Positions 39,879-40,144 of a stretch of DNA of 64,000 bases are shown in pieces. Under the pieces are notes generated by a model. It saw nothing but the letters and a program-made list of their open reading frames with translations. It made no database searches and had not been told where the DNA came from. A program made the translations under genes and the position numbers. Origin of the DNA: Endobacterium cereale (lineage in GTDB: Bacteria; Pseudomonadota; Alphaproteobacteria; Rhizobiales; Rhizobiaceae); contig NZ_WIXI01000022.1 in NCBI RefSeq assembly GCF_009617585.1, positions 186,001-250,000 on the forward strand, given 5' to 3'. Every line of letters begins with the position of its first letter. Position 1 is the first letter of the stretch.

Positions 39879-40055
39879 TCAGTTACCGACCCTGCGTACC
39901 ATCGGTACGCCGGGTTTGGTTGAATCATACAGGCTAAACGACGTCGCCTGCGCCGCGATTGTCATAGCAGCCAGAGCGTTTACCCGATGAAACTCATCGA
40001 CCGTGATCTGCCCACCAAGCGCCGGGTGAAGCTTCGGAGCATAGATCTGCCCGGC
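39879..40055 (-). pseudogene. 3' remnant of an unidentified gene
   Basis: An uninterrupted frame of about 57 codons ends in TGA at 39881-39879. Its translation contains GQIYAPKLHPALGGQITVDE, then AMTIAAQATSFSLYDSTKPG, and ends VPMVRRVGN. There is no plausible start: at 40055 it runs into the glnD fragment in a different frame and soon meets a stop. It therefore looks like the C-terminus of a gene whose 5' part was lost. The family is not recognised. Confidence 0.55.
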
Positions 40056-40144
40056 GGTTTTCGTTGGTGATCTTCATGCCGACGATATCAGTCACGTAAA
40101 ACGTATCGATGACCTTTTCGCAGAATGTGGTGATGTGCGGCTGA
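40053..40144 (-). pseudogene. Duplicated fragment of glnD
   Basis: These 92 bp match glnD 41684-41774 with about five or six substitutions and one extra base. On the minus strand it still reads in frame as ITTF-EKVIDTFYVTDIVG followed by MKITNENR, the second ACT-domain region of GlnD, with FGEK changed to FCEK. Most changes are silent. It is a detached copy 1.6 kb from the end of intact glnD, with orphan choX between them. Confidence 0.85.

Follow-up and report, generated by a model that had tools for sequence, protein, structure and literature searches.

A partial second copy of glnD fused to a Tdi1-type immunity gene remnant in the enlarged glnD-murJ interval of Endobacterium cereale

Introduction

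In the accessible part of its description, homology-facilitated illegitimate recombination (HFIR) is a mode of recombination, applying to linear DNA in general, that uses homology at one end and makes an illegitimate join at the other (PMC3240628). It has been proposed for Vibrio cholerae, where, going by the available portion of the source, T6SS modules are displaced and old immunity genes are left behind (PMC5361080); the corresponding portion of a study on agrobacteria describes orphan immunity genes that arise via recombination, within vgrG loci (PMC8546570).

Here we describe a locus of Endobacterium cereale that invites comparison with these systems and with Tde1/Tdi1, an Ntox15 DNase and its immunity protein. 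The window, i.e., the whole 64,000-nucleotide stretch of DNA that was analyzed, contains an intact resident glnD and a murJ gene, and between them choX, a second, partial copy of glnD (hereinafter the glnD piece) and the surviving 3′ end of a GAD-like/Tdi1-type T6SS immunity gene (hereinafter the tdi remnant). Like HFIR products, the locus could be anchored at one end in glnD, with a sharp, putatively illegitimate join at the far end and new DNA between them, and in HFIR, too, partial copies of the anchor can persist; unlike in HFIR, we infer the event here from a single product, and the join of glnD to tdi requires an extra deletion. As in the T6SS immunity displacement arrays of Vibrio cholerae and agrobacteria, so far as the available text of the sources describes them (PMC5361080; PMC8546570), an immunity-gene remnant lies downstream of new DNA. 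In contrast to those arrays, the tdi remnant lies away from all T6SS loci, follows a housekeeping gene and comprises the 3′ end only, and the new gene is choX rather than an effector-immunity pair. The likeness to Tde1/Tdi1 consists in 72% identity across 57 residues with the C-terminal end of a full gene that stands behind an Ntox15 gene in another genome of the genus (G006); unlike Tde1/Tdi1, the remnant is a tail without a start codon or an adjoining toxin gene.

Results

The glnD piece is a genuine but incomplete copy

The original prediction from the sequence had pointed to a same-strand near-copy of the glnD 3′ region at about 93% identity with mostly silent differences. A repeat search recovered it: positions 40049-40137 match 41680-41768 on the same strand (89 nt, 93%, start-to-start spacing 1631), and with one 1-base gap the match extends to about 40147-40152. 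Without gaps, the best-matching 89-mers of the interval and glnD share 83/89 bases, as against at most 47/89 in 50 first-order resamples of the interval, which places the repeat far above chance. In the genome of the window (hereinafter the own genome) the stretch occurs just twice, as the glnD piece and within glnD itself, the latter being the intact resident gene (41526..44384, minus strand, 952 aa), where the repeat lies within the last ACT region. The piece (40049..40148, minus strand) is bounded by sharp joins at 40049-40053 and near 40150, carries a 1-base insertion near 40140 and is incomplete as a gene, as it is cut at both ends and retains about 100 of the 2859 bases of glnD; it ends 154 bases short of the glnD end, and the glnD tail is absent from it. 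Its reading frame gives HITTFCEKVIDTFYVTDIVGMKITNENR. By our own count, the 89 bases contain six differences, four of them at third codon positions; the remaining two alter residues (Gly to Cys, and Gln to Arg at the edge). The Gly to Cys change and the 1-base insertion are, among others, private to the piece and are to be expected once it lay outside any gene. We accordingly rule out a function for the piece, which has no start codon, bears the insertion and is present as a second copy in just one of 51 genomes.

The piece groups with glnD of the nearest relatives

We arrived at this last count by searching the glnD stretch in 57 genomes of the genus, scoring at most 12 candidates in each. 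The stretch was matched in 51 (all except G010, G012, G019, G069, G070, and G077), of which just the own genome shows a second glnD match; extra matches in two others (G003 and G006) are their tdi genes. The nearest named genome, Neorhizobium sp. JUb45 (GlnD 95%), makes up, together with the own genome and two further genomes (G033 and G074), a clade of four Neorhizobium species. Alignment of the copy with related glnD genes, a check that had been proposed along with the prediction, grouped it with the glnD of this clade, with support of 98/97 in a tree of 16 chosen rows over 92 bases and of 99/95 in a tree of 87 rows, these being the distinct sequences among the 89 of 92 candidate glnD stretches that passed a cut of 65/92 identities. 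Neither of the outcomes named as refuting the prediction, namely the fragment being part of another conserved gene in all relatives or clustering with an unrelated ACT-domain gene, was found.

The 16-row tree resolves no order inside the clade. In the codon alignment, the piece has DIVGMKITNENR, which is common to the own glnD, JUb45, G033, and G074; DLVG stands in its place in the five remaining rows displayed. The piece lacks two changes that are found in the own glnD alone, and it retains GTG where the own glnD and G033 share GTC. These codons would lean, weakly, toward an allele that split off before the own genome and G033 parted, and the 87-row tree, which places the own glnD and G033 together (88/74), agrees weakly with such an order. 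Holding the piece and the own glnD as sisters bears no likelihood cost in the 92-base tree (p-AU 0.53), which is therefore compatible both with a relative's allele and with a duplicate from the own genome. No donor of the piece was found among the 57 genus genomes, and sliding identity over the four species gave no clear breakpoint in the own glnD; in the last ~160 glnD columns, identity between JUb45 and G033 (90.6%) exceeds that between the own genome and G033 (88.1%), on differences too few to decide.

The piece is fused to the end of a Tdi1-type immunity gene

The tdi remnant (39879..40053, minus strand) comprises the last 57 codons and the stop of its gene, lacks a start, and is read in a different frame from that of the piece. 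It matches residues 167-223 of the 224-aa G006 gene at 72% (E 5e-20). At the DNA level, its match to a GAD-like gene of Rhizobium leguminosarum runs up to 40052, and glnD similarity starts at 40049; thus, the join is sharp. Full-length relatives of the remnant are 224-247 aa long and combine PF08887 with PF08906; the homology to a full family gene is provided by the G006 relative, which matches both models. In G006 and G003, the full-length tdi genes are flanked on one side by an Ntox15 gene and on the other by a PAAR gene; a DUF4123 gene lies upstream, and the G006 locus additionally has a VgrG-like (Gp5 C-terminal) gene and a DUF2169 gene. In G003, two GAD-like/Tdi1 immunity genes (L037 4415-5095 and 5131-5874) stand in tandem behind one Ntox15 gene. 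A search of the own genome with the PF08906 model recovered one gene on contig C11 only and did not match the remnant; across the genus, 12 of the 57 genomes gave 13 matches to this model, none on a glnD-carrying contig. Seven plasmid records matched the region 39720-40260, five of them in the glnD part only and two in the tdi part, of which one is annotated as GAD-like and the other lacks annotation.

These findings revise the picture of choX framed by a plain direct repeat: the piece is truncated on either side and joined to the 3′ end of a Tdi1-type gene, for which at least two joins are needed, and choX is not the sole content of the stretch between the copies. They also dispose of a single-crossover (Campbell) insertion around choX, since what follows the copy is the tdi remnant rather than the rest of glnD; had two glnD copies undergone a single crossover, the second copy would continue into the glnD tail, and such an event is thereby rejected.

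The interval is a patchwork that includes an extra choX

The whole interval measures 2.35 kb and is a patchwork that reads, in minus-strand order, glnD, a spacer with an IS21-like end, choX, a 91-base spacer, the glnD piece, the tdi remnant, a spacer of ~100 bases, an oppositely oriented ORF (39397-39723), and murJ (37568..39175, minus strand), the leader of which (39176-39230) is conserved in JUb45 and G033. As had been predicted, choX (40240..41193, minus strand; 317 aa, OpuAC), a choline-binding protein gene, is an orphan, and we found it to be intact and without a choW/choV-like gene alongside. It is 83% identical to a copy on contig C12 of JUb45, the similarity extending to 41253. Of the 318 codons (stop included), 286 translate alike, and the 161 differences between the two are distributed 26/13/122 over the codon positions, which argues that both copies have been under protein-level selection. 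The JUb45 gene (L034 5395-6348) is an orphan in an unrelated place, by eye without a permease-like ORF beside it, and the 12 kb compared around it contain no glnD piece; hence, choX need not have travelled with glnD. The own genome also has, on contig C46, a 69% choX paralogue followed by a permease-like ORF, which is likely the regular operon, making the gene in the window an extra, orphan copy. No plasmid record matched the upstream part of choX or its downstream spacer, the latter (40149..40239, 91 bases) being a segment with no convincing match.

Upstream of choX lies a solo 26-base terminal end, lacking a transposase, of an element that we take to be IS21-like (41361..41386, minus strand). 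It is 96% identical to element ends in several genomes of the genus, where full elements occur with a neighboring 475-aa transposase containing integrase-core and Mu-transpos_C_2 domains, and in each context the common sequence stops at ...CGAAACACA. The ORF beside murJ (39397..39723, plus strand) is truncated by an early stop to 108 aa, as against 133-137 aa in its relatives, and belongs to a rare family with four proteins in a large protein search, those of the own genome and G074 included; its DNA (39383-39785) is 84% identical to the corresponding interval of G074.

The glnD-murJ interval is enlarged in one clade

We compared the murJ-glnD interval in relatives, as had likewise been suggested. 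In every one of the 80 named loci, which were the top 80 among 593 candidates (chiefly Rhizobiaceae, some from metagenome bins or other families), glnD and murJ are neighbors, with end-to-start distances of -51 to 358 bases, and these 80 gave no match at E 1e-3 to choX, the 39397 ORF or tdi. The relatives examined thus lack choX here (80 of 80 loci) and have a single glnD copy of the stretch (genus search above), the configuration that had been suggested for comparison. Within the genus, the spacing between the glnD stretch and murJ could be taken in 49 of the 57 genomes, the own genome being treated separately, G033 being split over two contigs and six lacking a match. It is 126-421 bases in 47 of the 49, and 510 in JUb45, 1469 in G074, and 2507 in the window; clear enlargement is therefore seen only in this clade.

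The enlarged intervals differ in their contents. That of G074 has a longer form of the 39397 ORF (L147 2362-2775) and an immunity-type gene of the SUKH family (SMI1/KNR4; L147 2929-3348; PF14567, PF09346), and that of JUb45 has a 79-aa ORF (L055 8866-9105) from a family with four known proteins; Pfam gave nothing over a cut-off for this ORF or for the G074 form of the 39397 ORF. In G033, where the interval is broken across contigs, the ~94 bases at the head of contig C24 (L036 1-95), next to murJ, recur at six places in the genome, several of them at contig ends, which identifies them as a repeat, likely an IS. A 25-aa reading at this contig end, which matched no Pfam family, presumably resembles the end of an IS630 transposase. 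The scar was found in no other genome searched, and its insertion site is enlarged in one clade; a literature search on glnD, murJ, and Neorhizobium returned nothing on this interval, judged by title.

Discussion

We interpret the glnD piece, together with the immunity-gene end to which it is joined, as the leftover of an older or foreign allele that was displaced by glnD-anchored illegitimate recombination, a reading that we would believe about as readily as doubt. The mechanism that we infer is as follows. The starting allele would have had an immunity gene behind glnD, and a deletion would have fused an internal point of glnD to it; an event of the HFIR type, anchored by glnD homology at one end and closed by an illegitimate join at the other, may then have placed an intact glnD tail plus choX ahead of the remnant. 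In this proposal choX may have arrived with the glnD tail or in a separate event, and either allele may have been the resident or the incoming one. In its favor are the membership of the piece in the clade (98/97), its lack of the two changes private to the own glnD and its retention of GTG, as well as the sharp tdi join and an interval that is empty or different in relatives. Moreover, by our own arithmetic, a random 100-base capture in a 6.1-Mb genome would have a ~0.02% chance (2859/6114623 × 1/2) of coming from the adjoining gene in the same orientation; this makes random capture improbable and an event tied to the glnD locus the economical reading. It is weakened by the requirement for at least two joins, by the p-AU value and the unclear breakpoint in the own glnD, by the location of the JUb45 choX away from any glnD piece, and by our having found no strain with an intermediate form. 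The anatomy of intact glnD, new DNA, and older glnD/immunity remnant would fit the HFIR model; the kind of event is uncommon but known, ordinary in kind and informative in detail.

The main rival to displacement is a local duplication of the 3′ part of the resident glnD, followed by deletions and insertions (of the immunity gene, the IS21-like element, and choX) that left 100 bases. The same-strand position of the piece next to its parent gene and the costless sister placement speak for it; however, the piece shares no private change of the own glnD, lacking both, appears, weakly, to predate the own-G033 split, and has no counterpart in the other 50 matching genus genomes, and so we consider a duplication somewhat unlikely. 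The original prediction had offered both routes, acquisition of choX through a relative's glnD copy or duplication with deletion: the copy does group with the glnD of relatives that lack choX and have one copy, and the 92-base tree is compatible with either a relative's allele or an own duplicate. We regard as improbable a patchwork made by end joining, in which a break between glnD and murJ would have been repaired by Ku-dependent joining with short stray pieces of glnD, tdi, the IS21-like end, and choX as fillers. Several unrelated short pieces with sharp joins, and six Ku-family genes in three adjacent pairs (on contigs C11, C6, and C51) of the own genome, are in keeping with it, and it is favored by a paper whose subject is reportedly the acquisition of heterologous DNA through NHEJ in Sinorhizobium meliloti. 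Four Ku genes are noted for S. meliloti in the available text of PMC7719229. Nevertheless, end joining leaves unexplained why a filler should originate in the adjacent gene in the same orientation; rhizobial products are, per the accessible part of PMC10932983, mostly small deletions. A search on templated insertions by bacterial NHEJ returned nothing relevant, judged by title. An integrative element with its attachment site in the glnD 3′ region, restoring glnD and displacing the old end as a second copy, would yield, as seen, an undamaged glnD end with new DNA and then an incomplete copy behind it; yet the copy stops before the glnD end and the ORF list of the 2.35-kb interval has no integrase-like ORF that we noticed, for which reason we set it aside as very improbable. 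An assembly artefact is similarly hard to credit, given that the site is interior to contig C14, the two copies diverge at ~7% of their sites, and a relative of the flanking ORF occupies the corresponding interval in G074.

Returning to displacement, a broader possibility, which we regard as speculative and rather doubtful, is that in this one Neorhizobium clade stray immunity genes and orphan genes have come to be turned over at the glnD-murJ junction, outside T6SS loci; successive glnD-anchored events would swap the contents and leave glnD and immunity-gene scars, and the piece described here would be their visible trace. No known mechanism is changed by our findings. If displacement is the correct reading, a housekeeping gene would have served as the anchor by which first an immunity gene and later the single gene choX were added to a chromosome with no complete mobile element involved, and this history would be recorded in the scar; a clade-specific insertion site with immunity-type genes away from T6SS loci is indicated.
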